Assembly: GCA_021018815.1 (NCBI GenBank)
Contig: JAITYX010000003.1
Location: 4,264,501-4,328,500 of the forward strand
Source: Talinum fruticosum
Lineage: Eukaryota > Streptophyta > Magnoliopsida > Caryophyllales > Talinaceae
DNA: 64,000 nucleotides
Reading direction: 5' to 3'
Positions within the stretch are counted from its first letter, which is position 1. Each line of letters starts with the position of its first letter. This document shows, piece after piece, positions 14,028 through 42,942 of this stretch. Below the pieces are notes generated by a model that did no database searches, was not told the origin of the DNA, and saw only the letters and a program-made list of their open reading frames with translations. The position numbers and the translations under genes are program-made.

Positions 14028-14029
14028 AT

Positions 14030-14041
14030 TGGTATCAAAGC
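14030..14041 (+). other. Primer-binding site, element B
   Basis: The sequence tggtatcaaagc lies two bases after the LTR terminus. It differs by one base from the complement of the 3' end of plant initiator Met tRNA (tggtatcagagc), which primes minus-strand DNA synthesis in most plant copia elements. Confidence 0.85.
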
Positions 14042-14085
14042 TAGCCTTTCAAGAGGATCTTGCAATCCAATGGTCTAAAGATCAA

Positions 14086-15304: not shown

Positions 15305-16742
15305 TCCTGAAGAGAAAGATAATTCTTATAACAATCTTTTCAAAACTTATTCTAGAACTGTTAAGTTTAGAAAGGCTTAGCATGGTCGCATTCATTCACG
15401 AGAGAAAAGGGACTGAGCCTGGACCGGTTTTCATGAAAAAGCCTTCTTAACTCTGTTTATAAAAAGAAAGGTTTTCTAAAGAAAGAGACACGAGACTCAG
15501 TTCTCTAGAAAGAAGACTCGGAATCGAGACCATACCCAAAATTATTCAAATCGGGTTCTCAAACTTCCTCATAAAAAGACCACGAGTAAAACGATTCTTG
15601 GGTTTGTGAGAGGAACCGAGAAGGGTTAGTGTGTTCTGTTTTTCGGGTCACTCGAAACGAGAGGGTCACTAGTACTTAGATAATGGGTGCTCACGCCATA
15701 TGTTTGGGGACTCAAGACTCTTCTCAAAATTAGAAGAAATGAAAGGAGGAAAGTTCACATTTGGAGATAATAGCAAAGTCAAGATAGTTGGGATTTAAAG
15801 GATTGGTCGGGAGACAATTCGGTCGAGTCCAGTCTACCTTGTCAAAGGGCTCAAATACAATCTTATGAGCATTTCTTAGTTAGGTGACAAAGGTCAAGAG
15901 GTAAGATTCATTCGGACCAATTGCTTCATTTCGATGCGAGTCACCAAATAGACAAAGCTCTCAAGTCCGAGGATAGGTAATACTTACACCGTTCCTCTTT
16001 CGGATTCTAGTCATGATTTATCATGTGTAAAAGCATCTTTGAATGATAATTCGAGGACATGGCATCATAAACTAGGCCATATCAGCAAGCATACCATTAT
16101 GAAGCTCGCATCTCATGGATTAGTTAGGGTTTGCCAAACTATGCATTTAAGAAAGATAAAATTTGTGAGGCATGCACAAAAGGAAAGAAAGTAAGATCAT
16201 CTTTCAAAGCATTCAAAACTATATCTACAACCAAAGTGCTTGAATTAATTCATATGGATTTGTGTGGTGAAATTCCTATGAAGAACTTAGGAGGTAAATC
16301 ATATGTGCTAGTTATAGTTTATGATTACTCACGATTTTCCTGGTTGTGTTTTCTAAAGAACAAGAATGAAGCCTTTAAAGAGTTCACTAAGATCTACAGG
16401 AAAATTCAAGTGGAGTTTGAGACTCGGATCGGAAGAATTTGCAGACTTTTTTGACAAGAATGACATCTCCTACAACTTCTCTGCATCAAGAACTCCTCAA
16501 CGAGAGAAAAAACATAACTCTTAAAAAATAAGAAGGACAATGATGATTGAAAATGATATGCCTTACTATTTTTAGGCTGAGGCGATCAACACGAGTAAAT
16601 TATACACTCAATAGATGCCTCATCGGACCTATTCTGAAGAAGGCACCCTATGAACTATACAAGGGAAAGAAGCCCAACATTTCTTACTTCAAGCCATTCG
16701 AATGTAAATGCTATTTCCGGGTTACTCATCTCATAGTAAAGC
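15305..16742 (+). pseudogene. Protease and integrase (element B), truncated
   Basis: The protease region lies near 15660-15760 and is disrupted. GAG-pre-integrase follows (15760-16130). 16131-16454 encodes the integrase core start: a zinc-type CEACTKGKK motif, LELIHMDLCGEIPMKNLGGK with the first catalytic Asp, and DYSRFSWLCFLKNKNEAF. 16547-16789 continues in another frame with LNRCLIGPILKKAPYELYKG. The second catalytic Asp and the Glu region are damaged. At about 16743 the frame runs directly into LTR sequence, so RT and RNase H have been lost. Confidence 0.7.
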
Positions 16743-17213
16743 TTCATATTACAACTCCAATTCTTAAGTTTCTACTTTTTGAGGTTTAAAGAGAAAGTCT
16801 TGTAATCACTTCTACATTTTCAATTCTCTATTTAGTGCCTTGACCGAGCTATAAGGGTTAACTCAACTCGGTTGTACTTAGTTGTAAAGGTTACCTCGGT
16901 TATGAAGTATTGGATCAAATAAGGGAATTTCTTGGTCTAGGAAAAACTTGTAAGTGAATTGTCCGAGGGAGCAATTCTATAAAGAGTCGGTCCTTGTATT
17001 TTGTGGATTCAAAATAGTGGATTTGACATGGTGCTTGGATTATTACTGTCCAGTGGTTTTCCGCCCCTAGATGGTTTTCACGTATTTTTGTCTTACTAGT
17101 TTACGAGTTCATTCTAGACTCAGAATTATTTTCTAAGCATTTGTTGGGTAGACATCTTTGTTAATTCTCAAAAACTTCTAGGGTGACTTAATCTCTCCAA
17201 GAGCAAACCTTCA
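16743..17213 (+). mobile_element. Truncated 3' LTR of element B
   Basis: This aligns with the last third of the 5' LTR (13530-14027): attacaactccaattc at its start and gcaaaccttca at 17213. A second small deletion removes most of the caccccctattcacccc block near 17175. It is followed at once by the target duplicate gcatg. Confidence 0.85.
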
Positions 17214-18837
17214 GCATGCTCCTGAAGTACTCTTTCTATCAACCTTGTACCTAGCAGAGTTAATGTTTGAGTAGCCACGAGAGTGAGACTTGAGTCCTTT
17301 GAGTAATAGAGACCAAGTGTCCGAGTTCCTGTAAAATATCTAAATATTCTCTTCACCGTAGTGAGATGTGATTCTTTTGGATTAGTTTAGAATCTTGTGC
17401 AAAGATAGACACTAAACATTATATATGGTCAAGATGTAAGGTAAAGTAGAGATTCGATAATGCCTCTATAGAGTTTCGATCTACTCGACTTAGCCTTCTT
17501 GTCCGAGTCTAGTTTGGTACTACTACCTATTGGAGTTGCTGCTGGTTTAGCATGTTGAAGCTTGTACTTCTTGAGTAACTCCTTGACATACTTAGACTGA
17601 TGCACATAAATTTCATCTTTGTCTTGCTTGATTTATAGTCCAAGAAAGAAATTTAATTCTCCCATCATGCTCATTTGGAATTCCTGTCTTATAAGCCTAG
17701 AAAATTCTTGGCATAAAGTCTTTATTAGTAGCACCAAAAATTATATCATCAACATAAATCGAATTATGAGAAAATCTTTCCGTTGGTTTTTGTAAATAAT
17801 ATTTTGTCAATCAAACCTCTTTGAAATCTATTTTCAACTAAGAAATTGCTCAATCTTTCATACCAATCTCTTGGAGCTTGTTCCAAACCATACAAAGCCT
17901 TTTACAATTTGAAAACATGATTTGGAAATTAAGAGTTTTCAAATCTAGGGGTTGCTTTATATACACTTCCTCTTGAATACAACAATTTCAAAATGCACAT
18001 TTTACATCCATTTGATATAACTTAATGTTTATGCTAGATGTAAATGCTAAAAGAATTTTAATAGCCTTAATCCTAGCAACAAGTGCAAAGGTTTCCCCAC
18101 AATCTATTCCTTCTTCTTATTTATACCCTTGGGCTACAAGTCTAGCCTTGTTTCTAACAACCAACCTTTCCTCATCCAATTTGTTCTTAAATACCCATTT
18201 TGTTCCTATTACTAGGGTCAATAGGTCATTTGGTAAAGGTCCATACTTCGTTTCTTTCAAATTGTGATAGCTTTTCTTGCATGGTCTCTACCCATTCAGG
18301 TTCAAGTAGGGCTTCTATTATATTTTTAGGTTCAATTAATGAAATAAATATTAAAAATTTTATGCAAATAAGATCTCTTCTTACCCCTGAGTTGATGTGA
18401 GAAATGATATTTTTAGGTGGATGATTAGAAGCATACTTGAAAGCTTTACCGACATATGATTACCGAGCTTGAAAGGTTGAGCACTTGTTTCTTCGATAGT
18501 CTAAGCCGATTGTGTCTCAACCTCTCTTATGCTTCGGTTGTCCGAGTTGTTTCCTTAACTCGGGTCATCTTGAGTTACCTTAGTTCTCTTATTATCTATC
18601 ATTCCGAGCTTAACTTCAACTATGCCATCATCATTTTTATTCAGCTTGAAATCCGAGTAGATTCACTTAATCCGCCATTGTCAACTTCATCAAAAATAAC
18701 GTCGATACTTTCCTCTAATGTGAAAATGTATCTAGCTAAACCTTGCTTAGAAAAACTTGAGGACATAGTCAAATTACCTCCCGAGGGTCGGTTTCCTCAA
18801 TATCGGATCCTTCACCTTCTTACCGAGATCCGACTTT
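17214..18837 (-). pseudogene. RT/RNase H remnant of element C
   Basis: The minus strand carries the RNase H start (17356-17168, MKRIFRYFTGTRTLGLYYSK), then, towards higher coordinates, the RT region. The DNA corresponding to LNFFLGL and YVDDIIFGA in element I is present near 17640 and 17745, and the GLKQAPR block is near 17880. Every frame is broken. Beyond about 18690 the integrase-RT linker joins directly to the gag coiled-coil region, with loss of protease and integrase. The remnant ends at 18837, where element D is inserted; C resumes at 45249. Confidence 0.65.
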
Positions 18838-18959
18838 TGAAGGTTTGCTCTTGGAGAGACCGAGTCGAGGCTACGAGGAGGGGTGAATATGGTGATGAGG
18901 AAATTTTAAGAATAAATGGAAGATTCAAGTTTAAAACATACTTTGAGACTCTATGAGTC

Positions 18960-21900
18960 TAGATTGGACTCGGAAGAGTATGAACTCGGAATTTACATGG
19001 ACACCCTCCTGGGCGAGAAAACCACGGTCAATGCTAATCCAAGCACCAAGTCAAATCCACTATTTTGAATCCACAAATTACGAGTAGACAAACTCAACCA
19101 GAATTGCTCCCTTAGACAATTCCTTACAAGGTTTTCCTAGACTCAGAAATTCCCTCATCCGATCTAGTACTTCCTAATTGAGGTAACCTTTACAACTAGG
19201 GACAAGCGAGCTGAGTTAACCCTTACAGCTCAACCAAGGGACCTTACTCGAAAGTAAGAAGAGAAGTTGTGATCGATTACAAGACCTTACAACTCGGAAA
19301 GATGTTAAGGACACGATTGGAGTTGTAAGTAGAAGATTAAATATGAATATAAAGACTTTTGCTTAAGTATGTGTATTGACAATGGTTCCAGCGAATCTTC
19401 AAGTCTTGAGATTTGGCTTCTATTTATAGATGACCAAGCGGCTTAGCCGTTGTGACTAGCTTCGATTAGAAGTCCTCTCGTGACCGTTGCACCGGTTCTT
19501 CGATTCACTAATAAAAGATCCGTCGAGATGTGAATATTGTGTTACGGCTCTTGACTCCTTAGGATGTCCCAATCCACTTGGTGGTGCTCGAAAAGTAAGG
19601 TGGAAACCACCATTGCGCTTAGTGTTGAAAATTTTCAATTTTGGAAACAGACAACCCCGACATAGTGTCTAGGCCTAGATCAAAAGTAGAAAAAGCCTTA
19701 TCCGAGTCTATATTGGACTCGGAAGAGTATGAACTCATAATTTACGTGGAAACCCTCCCGGGGCGGAAAACCACGGCCGGTGCTAATCCAAGCACCAAGT
19801 CAAATCCACTATTTTAAATCCATTATTTTGAATCCAAAAATACAGTAGGCGGACTCAACCGGAATTGCTCCCTTCGACAATTCCTTGCAAGGTTTTCCTA
19901 GACTCAGAAATTCCCTTATCCGATCTAGTACTTCCTAACCGAGGTAACCTTTACAACTAGGGACAACCGACCTCGGTTAACCCTTACAGCTCGAGTCAAG
20001 GGACCTTACTCAAAAAGTAAGAAAAGAAGTTGTTAGTGATTACAAGACCTTACAACTCGGAAAGATGTTAAGTACACAGTTGGAGTTGTAAGTAGAACAT
20101 TGAATATGAATATAAAGACTTTTGCTTAAGTATGTGTATTGACAATGGTTCCAGCAATCTTCACGTCTTGAGATTTGGCTTCTATTTATAGATTACCAAG
20201 CAGCTTAGTCTGTTGTGACTAGCGTCCGATTAGAAGTCCTCTCGTGACCGTTATACTTGGTTCTTCCGAGTCGCTCATAAAAGATCCGTTGGGAAGTGAA
20301 TGTTGTGTAATGGCTCTTGACTCCTTAGGATGTCCCAATTCACTGGTGGTGTCCGAAAAGTAAGGTGGAAACCATCATTGAGATTACTGTTGAAGATTTC
20401 TAATTTCGGGAACAGACTACCACGACATAGTGTCCGGGCATAGATGAGAAATAGAAAAAGCCTTATTTGAGTCTAGATTGGATCGAGAAGAGTATGAACT
20501 CATAATTTACGTGGAAACCTTCCTAGGGCGGAAAACCACGGCCTATGCTAATCCAAGTACCAAGTCAAATCCACTATTTTAAATCCACTATTTTGAATCT
20601 ACAAATTACAGTAGGCGAGACTAAACCGGAATTGCTCCCTTAGACAATTCCTTACAAGGTTTTCCTAGACTCAGAAATTCCCTTATCTAATCTAGTACTT
20701 CCTAACCGAGGTAACCTTTACAGCTAGGGACAACCGACCTAAGTTAACCCTTATAGCTCGGTCAAGGGACCTTACTCGAAAGTAAGAAGAGAACTTGTGA
20801 TCGATTACAAGACCTTACAACTCAGAAAGATGTTAAGTACAAAGTTGGAGTTGTAAGTAGAAGATTGAATACGAATATAAAGACTTTTTCTTAAGTATGT
20901 GTATTGACAATGGTTCCAGCAATCTTCAAGTCTTAAAATTTGGCTTCTATTTATAAATGAAAAAGCAGCTTAGCCGTTGTGACTAGCTTCGATTAGAAGT
21001 CCTCTATGACCAGTTGTACTTGGTTCTTCTAAGTTGCTCGAAAAGATCCGTTGAGATGTGAATGTTGTGCAACGGCTCTTGACTCCTTAGGATGCCGTAA
21101 TCAACTAGTGGTGTCCGAAAAGTAAGGTGGAAACCACCGTTGAGCTTAGTGTTGAAGATTTCAAATTTTGGAAACAGACAACCACGATACGAGTTTGGGC
21201 CTAGATCGAAGTAGAAAAAGCCTTGTCCGATTCTAGATTGCACTCGAAGAGTATGAACTAAGAATTTAAGTGGAAACCCTCATGGGGAAGAAAACCACGG
21301 CCAACGCTAATCCAAGCGAGCAAGTCAAATCCACTAGTTTAAATCAATTATTTTGAATCCATAAAATACGAGTAGACGGACTCAACCGAATTGCTCCCTT
21401 AGACAACTCTTTACAAGGTTTTCCTAGACTCAGAAATTCCTTTATTTGATCTAGTACTTCTTCATTGAGGTGACTTTTACAGACTAGGGACAACCGACCT
21501 GAGTTAACCTTTACGGCTCAGTCAAGGGAACTTACTCGGAAAATAAGAAGAGAAGTTGTGATCGATTACAAGACCTTACAACTCAAAAATATGTTAGATA
21601 CTGAGTTGGAGTTGTAAGTAGAAGATTGAATATGAATACAAAGACTTTTGCTTAAGTATGTGTATTGACAATGGTTCCTACGATCTTCACATCCCGAGAT
21701 TTGGCTTTTATTTATAGATTACCAAGCAACTTAGCCGTCGTGACTAGCTTCGATTAGAAGTCCTCTCGTGGCTAGCTGTACGGGTTCTTACGAGTCGCTA
21801 AGAAAAGATCCATTGAGATGTGAATGTTCTGCAAAGGCTCTTGACTCCTTAGGATGTCCCAATTCACTAGTGGTGTCCGAAAAGTAAGGTGGAAGCCACA

Positions 21901-24900
21901 GTTGAGATTAGTGTTGAAGATTTCCAATTTCGAAAACAGATAACCCCGACACGATGTACCGGGCCTAGATCGAAATAGAAAAAGCCTTGTCCGTGTTCGG
22001 ATTGGACTGAGAAGAGTATAAACTCATAATTTACATGGAAACCATCCTAGGGCGAGAAAACCACGGCCACTTGCTAATCCAAACACCAAGTCAAATCCAC
22101 TATTTTAAATCCACTATTTTGAATCCACAAATTACGGTAGGCGGACTCAACCAAAATTGCTCCCTTAGATAATTCCTTACAAGGTTTTCCTAGACTCAGA
22201 AATTCCCTTATCCGATCTAGTACTTCCTAACCGAGGTAACCTTTACATGTAGGGACAAGCGACCTGAGTTAACCCTTACGGCTCAGTCAAGGGACCTTAC
22301 TCGAAATTAAGAAGAGAAGTTGTGATCGATTACAAGACCTTACAATTTAGAAAGATGTTAAGTACGAGTTGGAGTTGTAAGTAGAAGATTGAATATGAAT
22401 ATAAGACTTTTGCTTAAGTATGTGTATTGACAATGGTTCCAAGCAATCTACAAGTCTTGACAGTTGGCTTCTATTTATAGATTACAAAGCGACTTAGCCG
22501 TTATGACTAGCGTCCGATTAGAAGTCCTCTCGTGACCATTATACCGGTTCTTCGAGTCGCTCATAAAAGATCCGTTGAGATGTGAATGTTGTGTAACGGC
22601 TCTTGACTCCTTAGGATGTCCCAATTAACTGGTGGTGTCCGAAAAGTACGGTGGAAACCATCATTGAGATTAGTGTTGAAGATTTCTAATTTCGAAACAG
22701 ACTACCCTAACACGAGTGTCCGGGCATAGATCGAAATAGAAAAAGCCTTATCCGAGTCTAGATTGAGCCGAGAAGAGTATGAACTCATAATTTACGTGGA
22801 AACCTTCCTAGGGTAGAAAACCACATCCTATGCTAATCCAAGCACCAAGTCAAATCCACTATTTTAAATCCACTCTTTTGAATCCACAAATTACAGTAGG
22901 CGGACTCAACCAAAATTGCTCCCTTAGACAATTCCTTACAAGGTTTTCCTAGACTCGGAAATTTTCTTATCCGATCTAGTACTTCCTAACCGAGGTAACC
23001 TTTACAACTACGGACAACCGACCTCGGTTAACCCTTACAGCTCAGTCAAGGGACCTCACTCAAAAAGTAAGAAGAGAAGTTGTGACTGATTACAAGACCT
23101 TTCAACTCGGAAAGATGTTAAGTACGAGTTGGAGTTGTAAGTAGAAGATTGAATACGAATATAAAGACTTTTGCTTAAGTATGTGTATTGACAATATTTG
23201 CAGCAATCTTCAAGTCTTGAGATTTGGCTTCTATTTATAGATGACCAAGCAGCTTAGCCATTGTGACTAGCTTCGATTAGAAGTCCTCTCGTGACCGTTG
23301 TACTAGGTTCTTCCGAGTCGCTCGAAAAGATCCTTTGAGATGTTAATGTTGTGTAACGGCTCTTAACTCTTGAGGATGTCCCAATCCACTGGTGGTGTCG
23401 GAAAAGTAAGATGGAAACCACCGTTGATCTTAGTGTTGAAGATTTCCAACTTTGGAAACAGACAACCCCGAGTCCGGGCCTAGATCAAAAGTAGGAAAAG
23501 CCTTGTCCGAGTCTAGATTGAGCCGAGAAGAGTATGAACTCGGACTCTACGTGGAAACCCTCCTAGGGAAGAAAACCACGGCCAGTGCTAATCCAAGCAG
23601 CAAGTCAAATCCACTATTTTGAATCCACTACTTTGAATCCACAAAATACGAGTACACATACTCAACCGAATTGCTCCCTTAGACAATTCCTTACAAGGTT
23701 TTCCGAGACTTTGAAATTAATTTATTTGATCTAGTACTTCCTAACCGAGGTCACGTTTATAGCTAGGGACAGCTGAGCTGGGTTAACCCTTACGGCTTAG
23801 TCAAGGGACCTTACTCGAAAGTAAGAAAAGAACTTGTCACCGATTACAAGACCTTAAAACTCATAAAGATGTGAAGTACAAAGTTGGACTTGTAAGTGGA
23901 AGATTGAATATGATTACGAAGTCTTTTTCTTAAGTATGTGTATTGACAATGGTTCCAGTAATATTCAAGTCTTAAAATTTGGCTTCTATTTATAAATGAA
24001 CAAGCAGCTTAGCCGTTGTGACCGGCTTCGATTAAAAGTCCTCTATGACCGTTGTACAGGTTCCTCTAAGTTGCTTAGAAAAGATCCGTTAAGATGTGAT
24101 TGTTGTGCAACGGCTCTTGACTCCTTAGGATGTTGCAATCCACTTGGTGGTGTCCGAAAGGTAAGGTGGAAACCACCGTTGAGCTTAGTGTTGAAGATTT
24201 TAAATTTTGGAAACAAACAACCACGACACGTAGTCCGGGCCTAGATCGAAGTAGAAAAAGCCTTGTGGACTCGGAAGAGTATGAACTAAGAATTTACGTG
24301 GAAACCCTCATAGGGAAGAAAACCACGGCGAGTGCTAATCCAAGCAGCAAGTCAAATCAACTATTTTAAATCCATTATTTTGAATCCACAAAATACGAGT
24401 AGACGGACTCAACCGAAGCTGCTCCCTTAGACAACTCCTTATAAGGTTTTCCTAGACTCCGAAATTCCTTTATTTGATCTCGTACTTAATAAGCTGTGGT
24501 GACCTTTATAGCTAGGGACAAGCGACTGAGTTAACCTTTACTGACTCAGTCAAGGGAACTTACTCGGAAAGTAAGAAGAGAAGTTGTGACTGATTACAAG
24601 GCCGTATAACTCAAAAATATGGTAGATACAGAGTTGGAGTTGTAAGTAGAAGATTGAATATGAATACAAAGACTTTTGCTTTAGTATGTGTATTGACAAT
24701 GATTCCTACGATCTTCACGTCCTGAGATTTGGCTTTTATTTATAGATTACCAAGCAGCTTAGCCGTCGTGACTAGATTCCGATTAGAAGTCCTCTGTGAC
24801 CGTTGTACTAGGTTCTTCGAGTCGCTAAGAAAAGATCCATTGAGATGTGAATGTTGTGCAACGGCTCTTGACTCTTTAGGATGTCCCAATTCACTTGGTG

Positions 24901-27900
24901 GTGTCCGAAAAGTAAGGTGGAAGCCACCGTTGAGATTAGTGTTGAAGATTTTTAATTTCGGAAACGAGATAACCACGACACGGTGTCCGGGCCTAGATCG
25001 AAATAAAAAAGCCTTGTTTGTGTTTAGATTGGACTGAGAAGAGTATGAACTCATAATTTACGTGGAAACCCTCCTAGGGCGGAAAACCACGGCCACTTGC
25101 TAATCCAAACACCAAGTCAAATCCACTATTTTAAATCCACTATTTTGAATCCACAAATTACGAGTAGGCGGACTAAACTAGAATTGCTCCCTTAGAGAAT
25201 TCCTTACAAGGTTTTCCTAGACTCCGAAATTCTCTTATCCGATCTAGTACTTCCTAATTGAGGTAACATTTACATCTAGGGTCAAGCGACTCGAGTTAAC
25301 CCTTACAGCTCGGTCAAGGGACCTTACTCGAAAGTAAGAAGAGAAGTTGTGATCGATTACAACACCTTACAACTCGGAAAGATGTTAAGTACGAGTTTAA
25401 GTTGTTAATAGCAGATTGAATATGAAAATAAAGACTTTTGCTTAAGTATGTGTATTGACAATTGTTCCAGCGAGCTTAGCCGTTGTGACTAGCGTCCGAT
25501 TAGAAGATCCGTTGAGATGTGAATGTTGTGTAAGGGCTCTTGACTCCTTAGGATGTCCCAATTCACTGGTGGTGTCCGAAAAGTAAGGTGGAAACCATCA
25601 TTGAGATTAGTGTTGAAGATTTCCAATTTCGGAAACAGACTACCCCGACACGGTGTCTACGCATAGATCGGAAAAAGAAAAAGCCTTATCCGAGTCTAGA
25701 TTGGACTGAGAAGAGTATGAACTCATAATTTACGTGGAAACCTTCCTAGGGCGAGAAAACCATAGCCTATGCTAATCCAAGCACCAAGTCAAATCCACTA
25801 TTTTAAATCCACTATTTTGAATCTACAAATTACGGTAGGCGGACTAAACCAGAATTGCTCCCTTAGACAATTCCTTACAAGGTTTTCCTAGACTCGAAAT
25901 TCCTTTATTTCATCTAGTACTTCGGACCGAGGTAACCTTTACAGCTAGGGACCACTGAGCTGGGTTAACCCTTACACCTTAGTCAAGGGACCTTACTCGG
26001 AAAGTAAGAAAAGAACTTATGACTGATTACAAGACCTTACAACTCATAAAGATGTGAAGTACAAAGTTGGGCTTGTAAGTAGAAGATTGAATATGAATAC
26101 AAAGTCTTTTGCTTAGGTATGTGTATTGACAATGGTTCCAGACTTTTTCTTAAGTATGTGTATTGACAATGGTTCCAGCAATCTTCAAGTCTTAAAATTT
26201 GGCTTCTATTTATAAGTGAACAAGCAGCTTAGCCGTTGTGACTTGCTTCGATTAAAAGTCCTCTATGACCATTGTACCGGTTCTTTTGAGTCACTCAAGA
26301 AAGATCCAATGAGATGTGAACGTTGTGCAATGGCTCTTGACTCCTTAGGATGTCCTAATCCACTGGTGGTGTCCGAAAGGTAAGGTGGAAACCACCATTG
26401 AGCTTAGTGTTGAAGATTTTAAATTTTGGAAACAAACAATCCCGACACGAGTCCGGGCCTAGATCGAAGTAGAAAAAGCCTTATGTGAGTCTAGATTGGA
26501 CTCGGAAGAGTATGAACTAAGAATTTACGTGGAAACCCTCATGGGGAAGAAAACCACGGCCAGTGCTAATCCAAGCAGCAAGTCAAATCCACTATTTTAA
26601 TTTCATTATTTTGAATCCATAAAATAGAGTAGACAGACTCAACCAGAATTGCTCCTCTAAACAATTCCTTACAACGTTTTCCTAGACTCAGAAATTCTTT
26701 TATTTGATCTAGTACTTCTTAACCGAGGTAACCTTTACAGCTAGGGACAAGCGAGCTGAGTTAACCTTTACAGCTCAGTCCGGGGACCTTACTCCGAAAG
26801 GAAAAAAATAGTTGTGACTGATTCCAACACCTTACAACTCATAAAGATGTTAAGTACGAGTTGGAGTTGTAAGTAGATGATTGAATATGAATACAATGAC
26901 TTTTGCTTAAGTATGTGTATTGACAATCGTTCCAGCGAATCTTTAAGTCTTGAGATTTGGCTTCTATTTATAGATGACCAAGCACCTTAGCCGTTGTGAC
27001 TAGCGTCTAATTAGAAGTCCTCGGTGACCCTTGTACCGGTTCTTCCGAGTCGCTCGAAAAGATCCGTTGAGATGTGAATGTTGTGTAACGGCTCTTGACT
27101 CCTTAGGATGTCCCAATCCACTAGTGGTGTCCGAAAAGTAAGGTGGAAACCACCGTTGAGCTTAGTGTTGTAGATTTCCAATTTTGGAAACCGACAACCC
27201 TAACACGTAGTCCGGGCCTAGATCAAAAGTAGAAAAAGCCTTGTCCGAGTCTAGATTGGACTCGGAAGAGTATGAACTCATAACTTACGTGGACACCGTC
27301 TTGGGGAAAAAAACCAAGGGCGAGTGCTAATCTAAGCGAGCAAGTCAAATTCACTATTTTAAATCCCCTATTTTGAATCCACAAAATACAGTAGATATAC
27401 TCAACCATAATTGCTCCCTTACACAATTCTTTACAAGGTTTTCCTAGACTCGAAATTCTTTTATTTGATCTAGTACTTTGTAAGCGAGGTAACGTTTACA
27501 GCTAGGGACCACTGAGCTGGGTTAACCCTTACAGCTCGGTCAAGGGACCTTACTCGGAATCTAAGAAAAGAACTTATGACTGATTACAAGACCTTACAAC
27601 TCATAAAGATGTGAAGTACAAAGTTGGGCTTGTAAGTAGAAGATTGAATATGAATACAAAGTCTTTTACTTAAGTATGTGTATTGACAATGGTTCCGGAC
27701 TTTTTCTTTAGTATGTGTATTGACAACGGTTCCAACAATCTTCAAGTCTTAAAATTTGGCTTCTATTTATAAGTGAACAAGTAGCTTAGCCGTTGTGACT
27801 AGCTTCGATTAGAAATCCTCTATGACCCTTGTCCAGGTTCTTTTGAGTCACTCGAAAAGATCCAATGAGATGTGAACGTTGTGCAACGGCTCTTGACTCC

Positions 27901-30900
27901 TTAGGATGTCCCAATCCACTGGTGGTGTCCGAAAAGTAAGGTGGAAACCACCGTGGAGCTTAGTGTTGAAGATTTTAAATTTTGGAAACAAACAACCACG
28001 ACACGAGTCCGGGCCTAGATCGAAGTAGAAAAAGCCTTCTCTCGTGTCTAGATTGGACTCGAAGAGTATGAACTAAGAATTTAAGTGGAAACCCTCATAG
28101 GGAAGAAAACCACGGCCAGTGCTAATCCAAGCGAGCAAGTCAAATCAACTATTTTAATTTCATTATTTTGAATCCATAAAATACGAGTAGACGAGACTCA
28201 ACTAGAATTGCTCCCCTAAACAATTCCTTAGAAGGTTTTCCTAGACTCAGAAATTCCTTTCTTTGATCTAGTACTTCTTAACCGACGTAACCTTTACAGC
28301 TAGGGACAAGCGAGGTGAGTTAACCCTTACGGCTCAGTCCAGGGAGCTTACTCGGAAAGTAAGAAGAGAACTTGTCACCGATTACAAGACCTTAAAACTC
28401 ATAAAGATGTTAAGTACACAGCTAGATTTGTAAGTAGAAGATTGAATATGAATACAAAGACTTTTGCTTAAGTATGTGTATTGACAATGGTTCCAGTAAT
28501 CTTCAAGTCTTGAGATTTGGCTTCTATTTATAGCTAACCAAGCAGCTTAGCCGTTGTGACTAGCGTCCGATTAGAAGCCCTCCGGGGCTGTTGTATCGGT
28601 TCTTCCGAGTGGCTCATAAAAGATCCGTTGAGATATGAATGTTGTGTAACGGCTCTTGACTCCTTAGGATGTCCCAATCCACTGGCGGTGTCCGAAAAGT
28701 AAGGTGGAAACAACCGTTCGGCTTAGTGTTGTAGATTTCCAATTTTTGAAACTCACAACCCTAACACATAGTCCGGGCCTAGATCGAAGTAGAAAAAGCC
28801 TTGTCTAAGTCTAGATTGGACTCGGAAGAGTATGAACTCATAATTTATGTGGAAACCCTCCTGGGGAAGAAAACCACGGCCAGTGCTAATCCAAGCAGAC
28901 AAGTCAAATTCACTATTTTAAATCCATTATTTTGAATCCACAAAATACGGAAGATATACTCACCCATAATTGCTCCCTTAGACAATTCCTTACAAGGTTT
29001 TCCTAGACTTAGAAATTCCTTTATTTGATCTAGTACTTCGTAATTGAGATAACCTTTATAGCTAGGGACCACCGAGCTGCGTTAACCCTTACAGCTCAGT
29101 CAAGGGACCTTACTCGAAAGTAAGAAAAAATTATAACAGATTATAAGACCTTACAACTCATAAAGATGCGAAGTACAAAGTTGGGCTTGTAAGTAGAAGG
29201 CTGAATATGAATACAAAGACTTTTGCTTAAGTATGTGTATTAACAATGGTTCCAGCAATCTTCAAGTCTTAAAATTTGGCTTCTATTAATAAGTGAACAA
29301 GCAGCTTAGCCGTTGTGACTAGCTTCGATTAGAAGTCCTCTATGACCGTTGTACCAGGTTCTTTTGAGTCGCTCGGGTAAGATCCAAAGAGATGTGAACG
29401 TTGTGCAACGGCTCTTGACTCCTTAGGATGTCCCAATCCACTGGTGGTGTCCGAAAAGTAAGGTGGAAACCACCGTGGAGCTTAGTGTTGAAGATTTTAA
29501 ATTTTGGAAACAAACAACCACGACACGAGTCCGGGCCTAGATCGAAGTAGAAAAAGCCTTCTCTGTGTCTAGATTGGACTCGGAAGAGTATGAACTAAGA
29601 ATTTACGTGGAAACCCTCATAGGGACGAAAACCACGGCCAGTGCTAATCCAAGCAGCAAGTCAAATCCACTATTTTAATTTCATTATTTTGAATCTATAA
29701 AATACGAGTAGACGAGACTCAACCGAATTGCTCCCCTAAACAATTCCTTAGAAGGTTTTCCTAGACTCGAAATTCCTTTCTTTGATCAAGTACTTCTTAA
29801 CCGACGTAACCTTTACAGCTAGGGACAACTAAGGTGAGTTAACCCTTACAGCTCAGTCCAGGGGACCTTACTCGAAAGTAAAAAAAATAGTTGTGACTGA
29901 TTCCAATACCTTACAACTCGGAAAGATGTTAAGTACACAATTGGATTTGTAAGTAGAAGATTGAATATGAATACAAAGACTTTTGCTTATGTATGTGTAT
30001 TGACAATGGTTCCAGCAATCTTCAAGTCTTGAGATTTGGCTTCATTTACGAGATAACCAAGCAGCTTATCCGTTGTGACTCGCGTCCGATTAGAAGTCCT
30101 CGGTGACTCGTTGTACTAGGTTCTTTTGAGTCGCTCATAAAAGATCCGTTGAGATGTGAATGTTGTGTAACGGCTCTTGACTCCTTAGGATGTCCCAATC
30201 CACTAGTGGTGTCCGAAAGTAAGGTGGAAACCACCGTTGAGCTTAGTGTTGTAGATTTCCAATTTTTGAAACTCACAACCCTAACACATAGTCCGGGCCT
30301 AGATCAAAAGTAGAAAAGCCTTGTCTAAGTCTAGATTGGACTCGAAGAGTATGAACTCATAATTTACGTGGAAACCCTCCTCGGGAAGAAAACCACGGCC
30401 AGTGCTAATCCAAGCGAGCAAGTCAACTTCACTATTTTGAATCCACTATTTTGAATCCACAAAATACAGTAGATATACTCAACTATAATTGCTCCCTTAG
30501 ACAATTCCTTACAAGGTTTTCCTAGACTCGAAATTCCTTTATTTGATCTAGTACTTCGTAATCGAGATAACCTTTACAACTAGGGACCACTCGAGTTGGC
30601 TTAACCCTTACGAGCTTAGTCAAGGGACCTTACTCGGAAAGTAAGAAAAGAACTTATGACTGATTGTAAGACCTTACAACTCATAAAGATGTGAAGTACA
30701 AAGTTGGGCTTGTAAGTAGAAGATTGAATATGAATACAAAGACTTTTGCTTAAGTATGTGTATTGACAATGGTTCCGGACTTTTTCTTAAGTATGTGTAT
30801 TGACAATGGTTCCAGCAATCTTCAAGTCTTAAAATTTGGCTTCTATTTATAAGTGAACAAGCAGCTTAGCCGTTGTGACTAGCTTCGATTCGAAGTCCTC

Positions 30901-31777
30901 TATGACCATTGTACTGGTTCTTTTGAGTTGCTCGTAAAAGATCCGTTGAGATGTGAATGTTATGCAACGGCTCTTGACTCCTTAGGATGTCCAAATGCAC
31001 TGGTGGTGTCCGAAAAGTAAGGTGGAAACCACCGTTGAGCTTAGTGTTGAAGATTTTAAATTTTGGAAACAAACAACCACGACACGAGTGTGGGCCTAGA
31101 TCAAAAGTAGAATAAGCCTTGTCCGAGTCTAGATTGGACTCGGAAGAGTATGAACTAAGAATTTACGTGGAAATCCTCCTGGGGAAGAAAACCACGACCA
31201 GTGCTAATCCAAGCAGCAAGTCAAATCCAGTATTTTAAATTCATTATTTTGAATCTATAAAATACGAGTAGACGGACTCAACCAGAATTGCTCCCTTAAA
31301 CAATTCCTTACAAGGTTTTCCTAGACTTCGAAATTCCTTTATTTGATCTTGTACTTCTTAAGCTGAGGTAACCTTTAAAGCTAGGGACAAGCGAGCTGAG
31401 TTTACGCTTACAACTTAAAAAGATGTTAAGTACAGAGTTGGAGCTGTAAGTAGAAGATTGAATATGAATACAAAGACTTTTGCTTAAGTATGTGTATTGA
31501 CAATGGTTCTAGCAATCTTCAAGTCTTGAGACTTGGCTTCTATTTATAGATGACTAAGCGGCTTTGCGATTGTGACTAGCTTCGATAAGAAGTCCTCTGT
31601 GACCGTTGTACCGGTTCTTCCGAGTCGCTCATAAAAGATCCGTTGAGATTTGAATGTTGTGTAATGGCTCTTGACTCCTTAGGATGTCCCAATCCACTAG
31701 TGGTGTCCGAAAAGTAAGGTGGAAACCACCGTTGAGCTTAGTGTTGTAGATTTCCAATTTTGGAAACCGACAACCAC
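18960..31777 (-). repeat. LTR-derived tandem array, left part (17 monomers)
   Basis: Anchored on the block aaccacgg, monomers occur at 19020, 19769, 20534, 21293, 22059, 22819, 23574, 24321, 25085, 25758, 26552, 27312, 28108, 28872, 29630, 30391 and 31190. Most spacings are 747-766; longer ones of 794-799 carry an internal 36-bp duplication, and 673 reflects a deletion near 25467. All monomers are head to tail. Each runs from a gactcgga(a)gag/gtggaaaccctcc block through the TATA-box region to a gtccgggcctagatcgaagt block. The last copy (31190) lacks about 60 bp near 31405. Confidence 0.92.
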
Positions 31778-33358
31778 TGAAGGTTTGCTCGGGGAGAGTC
31801 CGAGTCACCGTAGAGGGGGTGAATAAGGTGAGGAAGTCATCTTGTGGAGATTCAAACTCTTTTGCCAAGTAAAATACAGAATGCGGTTACGAGTCAAAAC
31901 AGATTCGAAAAGTAGAGACTCGGAAAGACCGAATAGATAGGAATGGTAAGAAAAGCGAGATGCTTTAAGACAATCTGAGTCTAGAATGAACTCGGAAAGT
32001 AAACACTTAGAGAATACGTGGAAACCCTCCCGGGGCAGAAAACCACGGACCGTGTCAATCCGGACACGAAGTCAAATCCACTATTTTGAGTCCACAAAAT
32101 ACCGTGAACGGATCGAACCCGAGTTGCTCCCTTAGACAACTCTATACAAGTTTTCCTAGACTCGAAATTCCCTTATCCGATCTAGTACTTCCTAGCTAAG
32201 ATAACCCTTACAGCTAGGGACAACTAAGCTGAGTTTACCCTTACGGCTTAGTCAAGGGACCTTACAAAGAAAGTAAGAAAGAGTTTGTAGTCGAGTATAA
32301 GACCTTACAACTCGAAGGTAATGAATTACAGAATAGGAGTTGTAAGTAGAAGATTGAGAATGAATACAAAGACTTTGCACAAGTATGTATATTAACAATA
32401 GGTTCGGCAAACTTCAAGTCTTGTGAAGTGGCTTCTATTTATAGATGACCGAGCGAGTAGCCGTTATCTTCATCTCGCTGACCGAGAGTCCTCTTTGACC
32501 GTTGATAGAAGCTTTCTAAGTCACTCGGAAAGTATCCGTTGTAATGTGAACGTTGGACAACGGTTTAACTCTCTTGGAAGTCCCAAAACTACTAGCGGTG
32601 TCCTGAGAGGTAAGGTGAATACCACCGTTAAGCTTGGCGTTCCAGTTTTCCAGATTTGGAAACAGACAGCTCCGACACAATCTTACGGGACTGGAGCGAG
32701 AGAAGGTGAAAAGCCATGTCTGCTTGGTGATTTGACGTTTTGAAGCCGGTTACTTTTGTGGTTTGAAAAAGGTGTATCCTCATTTGAATAACCTACAAAA
32801 GTAAATCAATTTTGGTTCTCAAAGTATAAAATACTTTGGTGCAAGATTAGACACGAGATAATAAAATAATTATGATGATTAATCAACCAATTATCCGAGT
32901 CGAAGAGAAGTGGAATTTTACGAGTCCAATATCAATAATACTCGGAATTCCATCCGATTTAGTCTAAGTGAAGGATCAAGATAAGTAAAGAATATCGAGT
33001 GAGATAACTTGATATAGACTAAGTACGAAACGGACTAGAGGTACCGACTCTAACGAAATAGAGCTTATAATCGAAGTCGGATTCGAGTGAGAAAAGACAA
33101 AATACTAGTCTATTAAATCTACGATAAATCTGAGTGATGAGGGACTCGGAACGAGAGAACCGGTTGTCCGAGTCACTTACGGATAAGCAAGAAATATAAG
33201 CAGTAAAAGCTGTATCACTTAGAGAAGATACCATTTTACTCAAAGAAGTTTCGAGATACGAGAGAATGCCTTGGAATCAAAACTCTATAAGTATGAGATG
33301 GTTATAGCTGATTCAATTAATGCAACTCGAAATGCGTTGAGAAGTGTCCGAGTCTTCA
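31778..33358 (-). mobile_element. Solo copia LTR inside the array
   Basis: The 1581-bp sequence runs tgaaggtttgctcgggg to gtgtccgagtcttca. It belongs to the same LTR subtype as element I (gctcgggg, and the aatacggaatgcg block) and not to the array subtype. The array monomer is interrupted in the middle of a gacaaccc word and resumes at 33359 with aaccctaacacatag. The flanks caacca(c) and aaccc are an imperfect TSD. It therefore entered after the array had formed. Confidence 0.85.
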
Positions 33359-36300
33359 AACCCTAACACATAGTCCGGACCTCGATCGAAGTAGAAAAAG
33401 CCTTGTCCGAGTCTAGATTGGACTCGGAAGAGTATGAACTCATAATTTACGTGGAAACCCTCCTTGGGAAGAAAACCACGGCCGGTGCTAATCCAAGCAG
33501 ACAAGTCAAATTCACTATTTTGAATCCACTATTTTGAATCCATAAAATACGGTAGATATACTCAACCATAATTGCGCCTTTAGACAATTCCTTACAAGGT
33601 TTTCCTAGACTATGAAATTCCTTTATTTGATCTAGTACTTCGTAATCGAGATAACCTTTACAACTAGGGACCACTGAGTCGGGTTAACCCTTATAGCTCG
33701 GTCAAGGGACCTTACTCGGAAAGTAAGAAAAGAACTTATGACCGATTATAAGACCATACAACTCATAAAGATGTGAAGTACAAAGTTGGGCTTGTAAGTA
33801 GAAGATTAAATATGAATACAAAGACTTTTGCTTAAGTATGTGTATTGACAATGGTTCCAGACTTTTTCTTAAGTATGTGTATTGACAATGGTTCCAGCAA
33901 TCTTCAAGTCTTAAAATTTGGCTTCTATTTATAAGTGAACAAGCAGCTTAGCCGTTGTGACTAGCTTCGATTAGAAGTCCTCTATGACCATTATATAGGT
34001 TCTTTTGAGTAACTCGGAAAAGATCCGTTGAGATGTGAATGTTGTGCAACGGCTCTTGACTCCATAGGATGTCCAAATCCACTGGTGGTGTCCGAAAAGT
34101 AAGGTGGAAACCACCCTTGAGCTTAGTGCTTGAAGATTTTAAATTTTAGAAACAAGCAACCCCGACACGAGTGTGGGCCTAGATCGAAGTAGAAAAGCCT
34201 TGTCCGAGTCTAGATTGGACTCGAAGATTATGAACTAAGAATTTACATGGAAACCCTCCTGCGGAAGAAAACCACGGCCAGTGCTAATCCAAGTAGCAAG
34301 TCAAATCCAGTATTTTAAATTCATTATTTTGAATCCATAAAATACAGTAGACAGATTCAACCGAATTGCTCCCTTAAACAATTCCTTACAAGGTTTTCCT
34401 AGACTCGAAATTCCTTTATTTAATCTTGTACTTCTTTACTGAGGTAACCTTTACAACTAGGGACAACCGAGCTGAGTTAACCCTTACAGCTCAGTCCAGG
34501 GACCTTACTCGAAAGTAAAAAAATAGTTGTGATCGATTCCAACACCTTACAACTCGGAAAGATGTTAAGTACACGGTTGGAGTTGTAAGTAGAAGATTGA
34601 ATATGAATACAAAGACTTTTGCTTAAGTATGTCTATTGACAATGGTTCTAGCAATCTTCAGGTCTTGAGATTTGGCTTCTATTTATAGATGACCAAGCAG
34701 CTTGGCCATTGTGACTAGCTTCGATTAGAAGTCTTCGATGACCGTTGTATCGGTTCTTCCGAGTTGTTCATAAAAGATCCGTTGAGATGTGAATGTTGTG
34801 TAACGGCTCTTGACTCCTTAGGATGTCCCAATCCACTGGTGATGTCCGAAAAGTAAGGTGGAAACCACCGTTGAGCTTAGTGTTGTAGATTTCCAATTTT
34901 GGAAACCGACAACCCTAACACATAGTCCGGGCCTAGATCGAAGTAGAAAAAGCCTTGTCCGAGTTTAGATTGGACTCGGAAGAGTATGAACTCATAATTT
35001 ACGTGGAAACCCTCCTCGGGAAGGAAACCACGGCCAGTGCTAATCCAAGCACCAAGTCAAATCCACTATTTTAAATCCACTATTTTGAATCCACAAAATA
35101 CAGTAGACATACTCAACCATAATTGCTCCCTTAGACAATTCCTTACAAGGTTTTCCTAGACTCGAAATTCCTTTATTTGATCTAGTACTTCCTAACCGAC
35201 GTAACCTTTACAGCTAGGGATAATTAAGCTGCGTTAACCCTTACAGCTCGGTCAAGGGACCTTACTCGGAAAGTAAGAAAAGAACTTATGACATATTACA
35301 AGACCTTACACCTCCGAAAGATATGAAGTACAAAGTTGGACTTGTAAGTAAAACATTGAATATGAATAAAAAGACTTTTTCTTAAGTATGTGTATTGACA
35401 ATGGTTCCAAGCAATCTTCAAGTCTTAAAATTTGGCTTCTATTTATAAATGAAGAAGCACCTTAGCCATTGTGACTAGCTTCGATTAGAAGTCCTCTACG
35501 ACCGTTGTACCGGTTATTCGAGTCGCTTAGACAAGATCTAATGAGATGTGAGCGTTGTGCAACGGCTCTTGACTCCTTAAGATGTCCCAATCCACAGGTG
35601 GTGTCCGAAAAGTAAGCTGGAAACCACCGTTGAGATTAGTGTTGAAGATTTCAAATTTTGGAAACAGACAATCTCGACACGGAGTCCGGGCCTAGATCGA
35701 AGTAGAAAAAGCCTTGTCCGAATCTAGATTGGACTCAAAAGAGTATGAACTAAGAATTTACGTGGAAACCCTCCCGGGGAAGAAAACCACGGCCAGTGCT
35801 AATCCAAGTAGCAAGTCAAATCCACTATTTTAAATCCGTTATTTTGAATCCACAAAATACAGTAGACATACTCAACTAGAATTGCTCTCTTAGACAATTC
35901 CTTACAAGGTTTTCCTAGACTCCGAGATTCCTTTATTTGATCTAGTACTTCTTAACCGAGGTAACCTTTACAGACGAGGACAACCGAGCTGAGTTAACCC
36001 GTACAACTCAATCCAGGGACCTTACTCGGAAAGTAAGAAGAGAAGTTGTGACTCGATTACAAGACCTTACAACTTAAAAAGATGTTAAGTACAGAGTTGG
36101 AGTCTGTAAGTAGAAGATTGAATATGAATACAAAGACTTTTGCTTAAGTATGTGTATTGACAATGGTTCCAAGCAATCTTCAAGTATTGAGATTTGGCTT
36201 CTATTTATAAATGAACCAGCAGACTTAGCCGTCGTGACTAGCTTCGATTAGAAGTCCTCTATGACCATTGTACCAGTTCTTCCGAGTCGCTCGAAAAGAT

Positions 36301-36480
36301 CCGTTGAAATGTGAATGTTTTGTAACGGCTCTTAACTCCTTAGGATGTCCCAATCCACTGGTGGTGTCCGAAAAGTAAGGTGGAAACCACTTGTTGAGCT
36401 TAGTGTTGAAGATTTCAAATTTTCGAAAAGACAACCTGGACACATTGTCCAGGCCTAGATCGAGAAAATAAAAAAGCCTT
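33359..36480 (-). repeat. LTR-derived tandem array, right part (4 monomers)
   Basis: Monomer anchors are 33474, 34270, 35026 and 35785, with spacings of 796, 756 and 759. The pattern continues the alternation of two monomer types seen from 26552 onward. The final monomer runs out at about 36480 into the unique U3-like part of the LTR (gatttaacattttgatgcc). Confidence 0.9.
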
Positions 36481-37132
36481 GTCTCGCTAGTGATTTAACA
36501 TTTTGATGCCGACTACTTTTATAATTCAAAAATAGGATAACCTCGTTTAAATAACGTACAAAAGTAATCAATTTTCGTCCGAGATTATACACGAGATAAT
36601 AATTTAATTACAATAATTAAGTGCATAATTATCCGAGTCGAAAGAAATGGAATTTTATGAGTCTAATATTCATTATACTCAAATTCCATCCGAGTGAGTC
36701 CGGAGAAAGATCAAGTTAGATGAAGAATATCAAAATAAAAATACTTGATCTAGACAAATATAGTTCAAACAAAACAAGTCGACTAGAAGAGATGAATTAA
36801 TGTCGTAATTCACTCGAACTTGGAATATGAAGTCGACACTGAGTTTAAGCGAGTTAGAGGGAGTGTTTGAACATGCGATATATCCGAGTGTTGTCTAAGT
36901 GACTCGGAATTACAAATGTTAAAAGATGAGCAAGAGTATGCTTTCCGAGTTAGTCGAAACAAATGAAAACTTATGCAGTAGTTTTTGTAACACTCAAAAA
37001 GGTTCCGTATCACTCGGAAAAGTTTCTATAGCACTTAGAATGATTTGAAATCAAAACTTACAAGAGATGAAATTAGTACCTTATTCCTTGATAGTACTCA
37101 AAATGTTATACATGTAAAGTCCGAGTCTTCAA

Positions 37133-37143
37133 TCTCCCCTTTT
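37133..37143 (-). other. Polypurine tract, element D
   Basis: On the minus strand aaaggggaga lies one base before the 3' LTR start. This purine run primes plus-strand DNA synthesis. The same motif is found at 50823-50834 in element I. Confidence 0.8.
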
Positions 37144-37705
37144 GATGAAAGGCATTCTTTACTCGAGATAGAAACTTTGCTTGGTGTTATAGCCCTGAGT
37201 TTTCATTCTTTCTCCACGAACATGTTAGAGTATATAGATAAAATCGTATAAATATCTAGAGGATTCAAACTTAGATTTTATCGGAGCAATTAAACTTCGA
37301 TTGCATCAAAGCTAAAAGCTGAAATATCGCATAGGAATAAAGTGAAACTTAGATTGCTTATATCATAGTACAAAGAAAAATGTAGCTGAGTTGATAGATC
37401 AAAGCAAGAAAAAAAAAGCATGTAATTGAGTTGATATATTGGGGCAAGATGAACTCGAAAAAAATAAATTGAAACTCAAAAAATAGTTATACCGAGAAAT
37501 AAATAAGCACGAAATAGACACTTCATTAAAATTCACATAGAAAAGATATATACACAAAAGAGGTGAGAGAAAACTCCCCTAAGCAAGACAACACAAATTT
37601 TCTAACTATCCTCTCCCTTGCCTTTCAAAGAAAAACAAAAAAAAATGTATCAAGAAGATACAAATTTGTATGTCTGGACAAAAAAATACAGGAAAAAAAA
37701 ATTTA
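37144..37705 (-). other. 3' untranslated stretch of element D
   Basis: AT-rich DNA lies between the third ORF and the polypurine tract. It includes actcccctaagcaagacaac (about 37575) and cccttgcctttcaaag (about 37615), which are also found at 51085 and 51133 in element I. No coding capacity is seen. Confidence 0.5.
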
Positions 37706-39333
37706 AGAAGGTGGAGAGGGAGCAGTTTGAGTTGAGGTGGAGGACCGAGCGGTGCGCCTTCACTAGTAAGAGCGGGATGATGTTGACGATCGAGGTGGGG
37801 GCAGCACTGGGATCTCCGGGGATGGGCTCAGCTCCGAATGATCGACCTAGAACCAGGTTGTCCAGAGGTTCGTCCTCTTGGAACTCGACCGACCGAGGTG
37901 CTTGCTCGGGCCGGACAACCGCCGACCGACCTTTGTCGGTAGGGTCTTCGACCCACTCGGACTACTATCCGAGCCGATCGGTTCTTGTTGAGGCTGGAGC
38001 ACCTTGTCCCTCCGATGCTTCGGCTCCTTCTTCTTCTTCCTTCTCTTCCTCTACCTTTTCCCCTTCCTTCTTCTCCTCGGATGGAGCTGCCTCGACCACA
38101 GGCTCCTCTTCTTTTTCTTCTTCTTCCTCCCTTTCGGAGGAGGATTTGGTCGGGTTCGAGGATTCCTCAAATGTATCTAAGTCAACCGAGTCCTGAGCAG
38201 CCTTAGAACGTCTTTCCTGGAGGAGCTCTATCATCTCCTTCCGATCCTTGACGATTGCTTTCGTCTCAAGAAGCACATCTTGCTACTCTCGATTTGGCAT
38301 TGAGCAGTCTTTTGATTGATGGTCATAGAATGGAGAACGAGATTGAATGACCGGAGGGAGTCCTTGAGTTCAGTAGACATCTGTGGAGATCTTGTCCATC
38401 ATGGCAAGTGGACAAGGCGGAAGAGAGAACTTAAGAAATACCTGAAGTGGAGGCACCACCAGGTGGAGGAGATAGAGAGAGAGAGCAGTTTGTGTATGAG
38501 CTCGAGGCGAAGAAGGTGGCCTCGGTTCGAGCTATGGACCCGGACACTCGGTTGGGTCTCTTGGTATCCATAGCCAAGGAGTTCTTTTCGCCAACAACGA
38601 TGGCAGCCTCGAAACCACATTAGGATCCGAGGGGAGAGGAACTTTGAACCGCTTGAAAATGAAAGTGAGAAGGGCCCCAAAGGGAAGTGGGTCGGATTTC
38701 TTAGTCGAGTCCGAGCCGGCACAGTGGCCATCCGCTGGATTATGGCTGGAAAGAGGTCTACTTCATAGCCCTCGAGGATATCAAAGAGAGCTTTGAGATG
38801 CTTAGAGTTAGGGTTCTCTTTGTTCGAGTGTTGAGAGAAGAAGATTCTCATCAACGAGAAACACGAAGATGGGCTTCGACTTTAGTTGAGTCACGTAGAA
38901 GTTTTTGCGTGACTTAGGAAATTCTTTTACGTACTTCTCAAAGAATTCATCAGCAACCTCATTAAAAGGTATAGGGTTACTGTTGAGGAATACGGAAGAT
39001 ACTTTGAAAAGGCGGTGGAGAAGAAAGACGTTGACATGGACAACAACGTCTTGAACTCCGGAGGTGAGTATACCCTCGGAGCTGGTGAGGTTGGAGTAAA
39101 ACTCACAAACGAGTTCTGGGTAGATGAACTCGCTGAAACAGAGGAAATTATAAATCCCTATGGTTTTGATGTTGTTTAACCACGAAAACTTAGTGGTTGG
39201 AAAGAATTTGTCATCCAACGTGAAGTGTTGGGTGACAATGATTTTAGAGGGGTTGGAAGGACCCTCTTGGCTTTTGTGCGAGGTTTCTTAGTTGTAAAAC
39301 AAAGAAAGTCTGGTAGGAACCTCTTTTCATCAT
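37706..39333 (-). pseudogene. Third ORF (envelope-like position), element D
   Basis: Downstream of pol on the minus strand. The likely start is the methionine at 39330 or 39333 (MKRG...), matching MPKRG at 52888 in element I. A conserved block, DDKFFPTTKFSWL then FLCFSEFIYPELV and FYSNLTSSEGILTSG, lies at 39215-39080. FEKYVKEFPKSRKNFYVTQL follows. A frameshift near 38830 moves the frame to KHLKALFDILEGYEVDLFPA (38800-38740). The C-terminal part (38276-37965) is a coiled coil (ETKAIVKDRKEMIELLQERR) followed by a Glu-rich acidic tail. The middle block faintly recalls the plant transposon protein domain found in some retroelement ORFs. The function is unknown; envelope-like is a positional label only. 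Confidence 0.6.
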
Positions 39334-40008
39334 GTTTGAATGAGAAAAGAGAGAATATGAACTTTGAGAGAGAGATAGCTCGAAGAGAGAGAGCGATTAG
39401 AGAGTAGAGAATAAAAAGAAAATGAAAGAGTAGAAAGAGAGCTGAGAGCAATAGGTGCTTACTTGAGATTTCTTTCACTTAGTTTGAGAGTCGGTTCACT
39501 CCTTGAAAATAGTGAACTTGCTCGAGATGTAGTAACCGAGAGAGAGAGTATGTAGAGAGTAAAGTAGCGAAATGAAGGAAAAAGGATGCTATATATAGAG
39601 AAAGAATTTTCCTTCACCGATCATTCTGACCCGAGCTCTCTAACGGTCGCCTCAAACCGGTGTGACTATTCTCGCTCTCCAACTGTTAGAATTCCAGTGC
39701 TTGTTTGCCAATGGCTAGTTCTCCGATCGATGCACGTGAGAGAGAGAGAGAGAGAGAAAACGAGAGATTTTAAAAGAAATTTTTGAAATTCTCCACTGAT
39801 CTAGAGATGATTTCAGAAGTTTGATGTCCATTTTTCTCAAAATTTGAGTCTGACTCGAGTAAAATTTCCGAGTGACTCGAAACCATAAACAAGTAATAAC
39901 TCATAGCTCAGTATCACTAGGTCAACTGAACCAATTGTTATTAAAGCATAAAAGCGGAACATTTAACACATAATCATGCAAAGTAATTCCACTTAGAAAA
40001 GCACATAG
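39334..40008 (-). other. Spacer between pol and third ORF, with (GA)n
   Basis: There is no gene here. On the minus strand it is pyrimidine-rich and carries a (TC)n microsatellite at 39736-39757. The corresponding spacer of element I (52889-53520) carries (TC)n at 53278-53294. It may act as leader for the third ORF. The hydrophobic reading frame across 39176-39478 comes from the T/C richness. Confidence 0.5.
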
Positions 40009-40991: not shown

Positions 40992-41160
40992 AAGAGTCTT
41001 GAGTCTCCCGACATATGGTGTGAGGATCCACTATCTAGGTACCAATGTCCTTTTGTTCTTTTCGAGTCACCTGCAAGTCGAAACAAACTAACCTTTCTCA
41101 CTTCCTCGAACAAACCCAAGTAACTCCCTTTACTCGTAGTCCTTTTCTAAAGAAGAAGAA
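40992..41160 (-). pseudogene. Protease remnant fused to RT, element D
   Basis: The minus strand retains the CS.HM protease block (ccacatatgtcggg-type DNA near 41010) and the preceding WYL region (41035). At 40992-41001 it joins RT. The join word agagtcttg occurs at both parental sites in other copies: the protease side at 2667-2675 and the RT side at 54512-54520. GAG-pre-integrase, integrase and the RT N-terminal half, about 2.1 kb, are deleted. Confidence 0.7.
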
Positions 41161-42897: not shown

Positions 42898-42942
42898 TTA
42901 ATCTTTAGACCTTTGGATGGTTAAATCCTTTTTGAAAGGCTA

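Follow-up and report, generated by a model that had tools for sequence, protein, structure and literature searches.

The segment from 18838 to 37131 of the window (the whole 64,000-nucleotide stretch of Talinum fruticosum DNA analysed here) is one copia LTR in which a core of ~760 bp recurs 21 times head to tail. The locus resembles the first steps of LTR-derived satellites, but neither its size nor its spread is that of a satellite. The array is better called nascent or stalled, and private to one insertion, rather than a satellite in the usual sense. We consider it probable that an LTR dimer arose at about the time of insertion of the element, and that the 3′ LTR alone then grew from two units to 21 by block-wise exchange.

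Anatomy of the array

The enlarged LTR lies on the minus strand, has the normal ends TGAAGG and GTCTTCA, and is homologous to the single-copy LTR at 6157-7635. A BLAST search of the window with that LTR shows that its positions ~112-852 form the repeated core. Ordinary LTR ends flank the array (18838-18947 and 36483-37131). The normal termini, the 21 head-to-tail copies and an average spacing near 759 bp had all been described in a sequence-only reading, which also proposed the alignment of the monomers with the single-copy LTR. These claims hold, with the array proper (units M01 to M21, minus strand, nested LTR included) now refined to 18948-36482 by BLAST, Tandem Repeats Finder and a unit count made on the assembly sequence, and with a mean spacing of ~759.5 bp by arithmetic on the coordinates when the nested LTR is omitted. 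Tandem Repeats Finder reports periods of 765 in the left part of the array, 1560 in its right half and 759 at its right end.

The array comprises ~16 kb of diverged units that are mutually 84-94% identical (K2P distances 0.059-0.185), a similarity far above chance. Unit 9 (M09) is shortened to 672 bp. A solo LTR at 31778-33358 (minus strand) splits unit M17 and is present in that single unit, and therefore unit 17 was not recopied with its nested LTR. This solo LTR belongs to a related subfamily and has an imperfect target duplication (AACCAC / AACCC); the LTRs found near positions 49243 and 58589 are 92-93% identical to it. It is hardly credible that the array is an assembly artefact concealing a locus of one or two units: K between units is 0.06-0.19, individual units are set apart by indels, one unit has a nested LTR, and the contig that contains them is 14.7 Mb long. 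Assembly stutter is likewise rejected because the units are divergent.

There is a TATA box ~267 bp into the unit, in the sense direction. The sequence TATAAA is present in six of the seven aligned single-copy LTRs (the LTR at 11560-13094 has TATGAA instead) and is kept in 18 of the 21 array units. Because of the position of this box, the unit is taken to comprise the end of U3 and the post-promoter region, minus the LTR's final ~111 bp. Thus, the core of the array is the predicted promoter-bearing part of the LTR. An Rfam search of the window gave no match.

The host element and its insertion

The host element is on the minus strand. Immediately to the right of 37131 is a purine tract (37132-37143) that, from its motif type, we take to be the polypurine tract, located outside the LTR as the earlier reading had indicated. 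The stretch at 42943-42954 (TGGTATCGAGCC, minus strand) is presumably, again by motif type, the primer-binding site. From this arrangement it follows that the array resides in the 3′ LTR, and that 42957-45248 is the 5′ LTR of the same minus-strand element. Between the two LTRs is a degenerate internal region (37132-42956, by self-BLAST and Pfam), which retains a copia-type gag remnant at 42333-42641 (PF14223, 39.3 bits vs a cut-off of 27). Self-BLAST indicates that, compared with the relative at 50823-58588, this region is missing ~2.1 kb, for which the homologous stretch in the relative is 54519-56616. The relative carries an integrase core domain at 55580-56218, within the region that is missing from the host, and its protein relatives, where named, are plant TNT 1-94-type Pol proteins.

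Two LTRs, a primer-binding site and a polypurine tract are therefore present in the host element, with a target duplication that matches at only 3/5 positions. This duplication (ACTTT / GCTTC) is weak and counts against our preferred reading. When the outer flanks of the element are joined, the resulting sequence matches four related internal stretches in the window without a break at the join, with 66-67% identity. This alignment indicates a single insertion into an older relative, and that both LTRs belong to the same element. Judging by these features, the element is a degenerate minus-strand Ty1-copia copy that was inserted once, and the insertion site appears to be an internal, gag-proximal stretch of the older relative.

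By self-BLAST, most of the window (1-64000) is made up of copia fragments from a single superfamily, nested in one another and lying in either orientation; examples are 1421-5980, 11560-18450, 46959-48514 and 49243-60165. The last of these is a longer copia relative whose LTRs are 95.7% identical and which has integrase core and Pol_BBD pieces. Some 2 kb near its 3′ end (50823-52995) gave no Pfam match in the pieces scanned. Two small repeats are also present, namely a ~274-bp unit repeated 1.9 times at 61203-61733, with shorter internal repeats and no relation to the array seen, and an AT-rich 47-bp unit repeated 3.8 times at 9444-9625.

The two-unit 5′ LTR

The 5′ LTR has mutated terminal dinucleotides (TAAAGG ... 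GTCTTTA) and contains two units, F1 (43067-43815) and F2 (43816-44574), both defined on the minus strand by self-BLAST and unit alignment. Their junction (43810-43835, minus strand) has a breakpoint identical to that of the array. The earlier claim that this LTR has two copies and the other LTRs of the family one is thus upheld: within 104 kb around the locus there are 13 other matches to the unit, all solitary (the nested LTR is one of them, and some are partial).

In the 5′ LTR, the 6-bp sequence TGTCCG is found at both outer edges of the duplicated segment and again at the junction. The joint of the duplication is therefore, on its sequence, a likely microhomology joint. Two observations count against the favoured reading, in that TGTCCG is no longer visible at the left edge of the 3′ LTR, and in most relatives only TGTC is common to both edges.

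The distance between F1 and F2 is K=0.110, and that between the LTR flanks is K=0.101 (755 sites). Only three alleles are common to F1 and F2 but missing from all 27 single-copy relatives, and one of these is found in 21/21 array units. The shared junction, the similarity of the two K values and the small number of alleles private to F1 and F2 together suggest that the dimer is about as old as the insertion. At a plant substitution rate of 1.3e-8 per site per year, the flank value of K=0.101 would correspond to roughly 4 million years, an age that depends wholly on this rate.

Probably, at about the time when a Ty1-copia element made its single insertion into the gag-proximal stretch of an older relative, the ~760-bp LTR core was duplicated across a short microhomology, which would have given a new copy with a two-unit LTR at both ends. 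The dimer might have come from an error in the last cycle of reverse transcription, such as strand transfer between read-through or co-packaged RNAs. During reverse transcription both LTRs are made from one template, and a last-cycle error would thus explain why the junction is in both LTRs and was not found in other copies. The main alternative to such an error is early gene conversion between the LTRs, in which the 3′ LTR alone would have acquired the duplication once the element was in place, and the 5′ LTR would later have received a copy of it. This too would put the same junction into both LTRs and into no other copy, and it leaves the parent element unchanged. However, it requires one extra event, and a very early conversion, since the F1-F2 distance (K=0.110) points to the same age as the flank distance (K=0.101). 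We regard this route as unlikely.

The junction elsewhere in the genome

The assembly comprises 620 Mb in 264 contigs, and the junction searches described here were keyed on the breakpoint of this array. A 30-mer spanning the junction, with as many as 3 mismatches allowed, has 13 matches in the whole assembly, and 13/13 are in this array. The junction of the 5′ LTR is missed by this probe because its A-run is shorter. A junction 21-mer (up to 2 mismatches) has 52 matches, of which 14 are at the locus, including the 5′ LTR junction. Each of the remaining 38 has 2 mismatches and a different left context. Six of these were inspected, and all are LTR edges with one unit; in one of them (L055) another LTR fragment lies upstream and is not joined at the junction of the array. 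A looser 26-mer gave 231 matches, and among the 100 listed, those outside the locus lack GCCTTG.

Searches with whole units gave similar results. With the 5′ LTR as query (42959-45249), no match spanning both units was found outside the locus among the 39 scored of 20605 candidates. All 27 of the close relatives that were fetched have a single unit in the register of the array, and three of them (L025, L034 and L048) have additional LTR pieces nearby. Unit M16 has no match above 83% outside the locus among the 39 scored of 13868 candidates.

The sequence-only reading had called for an assembly search for arrays of the monomer elsewhere; none with this breakpoint came to light, since the exact junction was found at this locus only and the scored matches to M16 outside it do not exceed 83%. 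Spread of the array to other loci is rejected, because the junction and M16 searches find no further copy at this breakpoint. The 21 units have the head-to-tail, many-copy arrangement of satellite DNA, and the unit is LTR-derived, as in satellites of the Sobo or CRM1TR kind, given its alignment to positions ~112-852 of the LTR at 6157-7635. Neither long arrays nor several loci are seen at this breakpoint, with the 30-mer found in this array only and the array only ~16 kb in size. The array is also still enclosed by the ends of a single LTR, and thus is not independent of its parent element. The proposal that a satellite was born here from an LTR core therefore survives in part: there is amplification in place with two- and four-unit higher-order structure, as in young satellites, but no spread is seen, and the array is small.

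Growth of the array

Within M10-M20 (25688-35716, minus strand), two unit types alternate in dimer order, such that units at even offsets are 90.5-91.6% identical and those at odd offsets 85.7-86.9%, a contrast reached in 19 of 10000 permutations. The left part, M01-M09 (18948-25687, minus strand), is tetramer-like: offset 4 stands out with the highest identity, and the contrast is reached in 10 of 10000 permutations. The closest pair of units is M16 and M18 (K=0.059). Thus, growth of the array was block-wise, with two-unit blocks on the right and four-unit blocks on the left. A 37-bp internal tandem duplication is present in units 10, 12, 16 and 18 (26106-26178, 27663-27733, 30741-30813 and 33822-33897) and absent from two further units of that type, 14 and 20, and therefore was gained or lost during block copying.

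After insertion, only the 3′ LTR would have expanded from two units to 21, either by recombination out of register or through break repair, with two-unit blocks copied in the right half and four-unit blocks in the left half during later rounds. A foreign LTR would then have entered unit 17, and the array would have decayed. Another possibility is one-step rolling-circle copying of an LTR-derived circle that recombined into the 3′ LTR and was then reshuffled, which would fit the deep, star-like split between the unit types at around the insertion date. The order of two- and four-unit blocks requires later local exchange in any case, and the 30-mer and 21-mer junction searches of the assembly found no further insertion of such units, which makes a rolling circle very improbable.

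There are 98 locus-private alleles common to at least two array units, and only 5 of these 98 are also in F1 or F2. The pairs F1/M01 and F2/M21 have no private alleles in common beyond the three that F1 and F2 both have. The largest number shared with any one unit is 4 for F1 (with M18) and 3 for F2 (with M12), and this counts against the reading in which the array grew from a dimer. Of six topologies compared by the AU test, some of which link F1 and F2 to given units and some of which do not, none is rejected (p 0.18-0.55), and trees together with diagnostic sites resolve no tie of F1 or F2 to particular array units. Thus, trees cannot settle the order of dimer, insertion and growth.

These data also bear on a scenario in which the parent element already had long LTR arrays, both of which were inserted, and the 5′ LTR then collapsed to its two end units. 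Unequal exchange collapses arrays easily, related topologies are among those that survive the AU tests, and the median K among units (0.142) is above the flank value (0.101). However, if an array had been inherited and the 5′ LTR had collapsed, F1 and F2 should have older mutations in common with the end units, and the comparisons with M01 and M21 reveal none beyond the three alleles noted above. Moreover, none of the relatives scored has more than one unit in the register of the array. Such a collapse therefore seems improbable, and growth of the 3′ LTR from a dimer remains our preferred reading.

Divergence of the array units

At face value, the median K of 0.142 suggests that the units are older than the insertion dated by the flanks (K=0.101). 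This value fits growth after insertion only if array units change faster. Without masking, the mean divergence from the subfamily is 9.4% for array units and 6.2% for single-copy kin, with all substitution classes involved. The values for F1 and F2 are 6.8 and 6.2%, and thus show no excess.

The divergence of 19 of the 21 units exceeds that of the most diverged of the 27 relatives in the unmasked comparison, and that of 12 and 10 units does so under two gap masks. The ratio of array units to relatives is 1.44 under both masks (site bootstrap 95% intervals of 1.22-1.73 and 1.15-1.77); the relatives are the best matches to the 5′ LTR, and hence their divergence is biased low. The unamplified right flank of the array LTR has a divergence of 7.6%, which is inside the relatives' range of 5.0-10.8%. 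Array units thus appear to change faster than their kin, and it is possible that growth of the array was mutagenic, as judged against a best-match sample of relatives. An excess of AT-to-GC changes among private alleles was rejected as a signal because it is largely due to ascertainment (42 of 294 relative-invariant columns are G or C).

A more specific proposal, which we offer only tentatively, is that a dimeric LTR from one cycle of reverse transcription was followed by error-prone growth after insertion that resembled break-induced replication, during which the units gained ~1.4 times more substitutions than their single-copy kin.

Relation to known LTR-derived repeats

Satellites with LTR-derived monomers are established, with Sobo, potato centromere repeats, CRM1TR and CRM4TR as examples (PMC3648361, PMC9659126). 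As described there, Sobo of Solanum bulbocastanum is similar to Sore1 LTRs (Gypsy) and has a 4.7-kb monomer that occupies ~360 kb in a pericentromere (PMC3648361, PMC9659126). Both Sobo and the present array have a tandem unit with LTR sequence, whereas the unit here is ~760 bp and the array is ~16 kb and still in one LTR of a copia element. The CRM1TR and CRM4TR repeats of maize derive from LTRs of centromeric retrotransposons (Ty3/gypsy) and are dated by nested elements, with 187 full-length CRM1TR monomers at two loci (PMC3648361). They too are tandem repeats out of retrotransposon LTRs with nested elements, but their unit, as presented there, is an LTR plus UTR and their arrays are no longer one LTR, unlike the array here.

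Short arrays in Ogre LTR retrotransposons of Lathyrus sativus, which occasionally expand (PMC7004042), are similar in that a tandem array lies within an LTR retrotransposon. Those arrays are downstream of gag-pol and in many copies, whereas the present one is in the LTR and private to one copy. Cassandra elements form head-to-tail arrays of alternating LTR and internal domain (PMC7215508). LTR sequence is likewise head to tail here, but the units abut directly at one junction with no internal domain between them, and therefore a Cassandra-type array is rejected. A literature search in which most subscription papers were beyond reach revealed no case of an array within one LTR of a bordered element whose other LTR has two units.

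LTR-derived satellites are already known, and growth in place and on one side is a useful variant. The origins of satellites are usually argued from finished arrays without a surviving parent. Here the parent element, the likely precursor (the two-unit 5′ LTR) and the product (the 21-unit 3′ LTR) are 6 kb apart. Since these occur together, with the insertion as an internal clock, the order of duplication, insertion and expansion is testable in related genomes. If the tentative proposal of error-prone growth is true, the emergence of a satellite out of an LTR would amount to mutagenic repair whose steps can be read at one locus.
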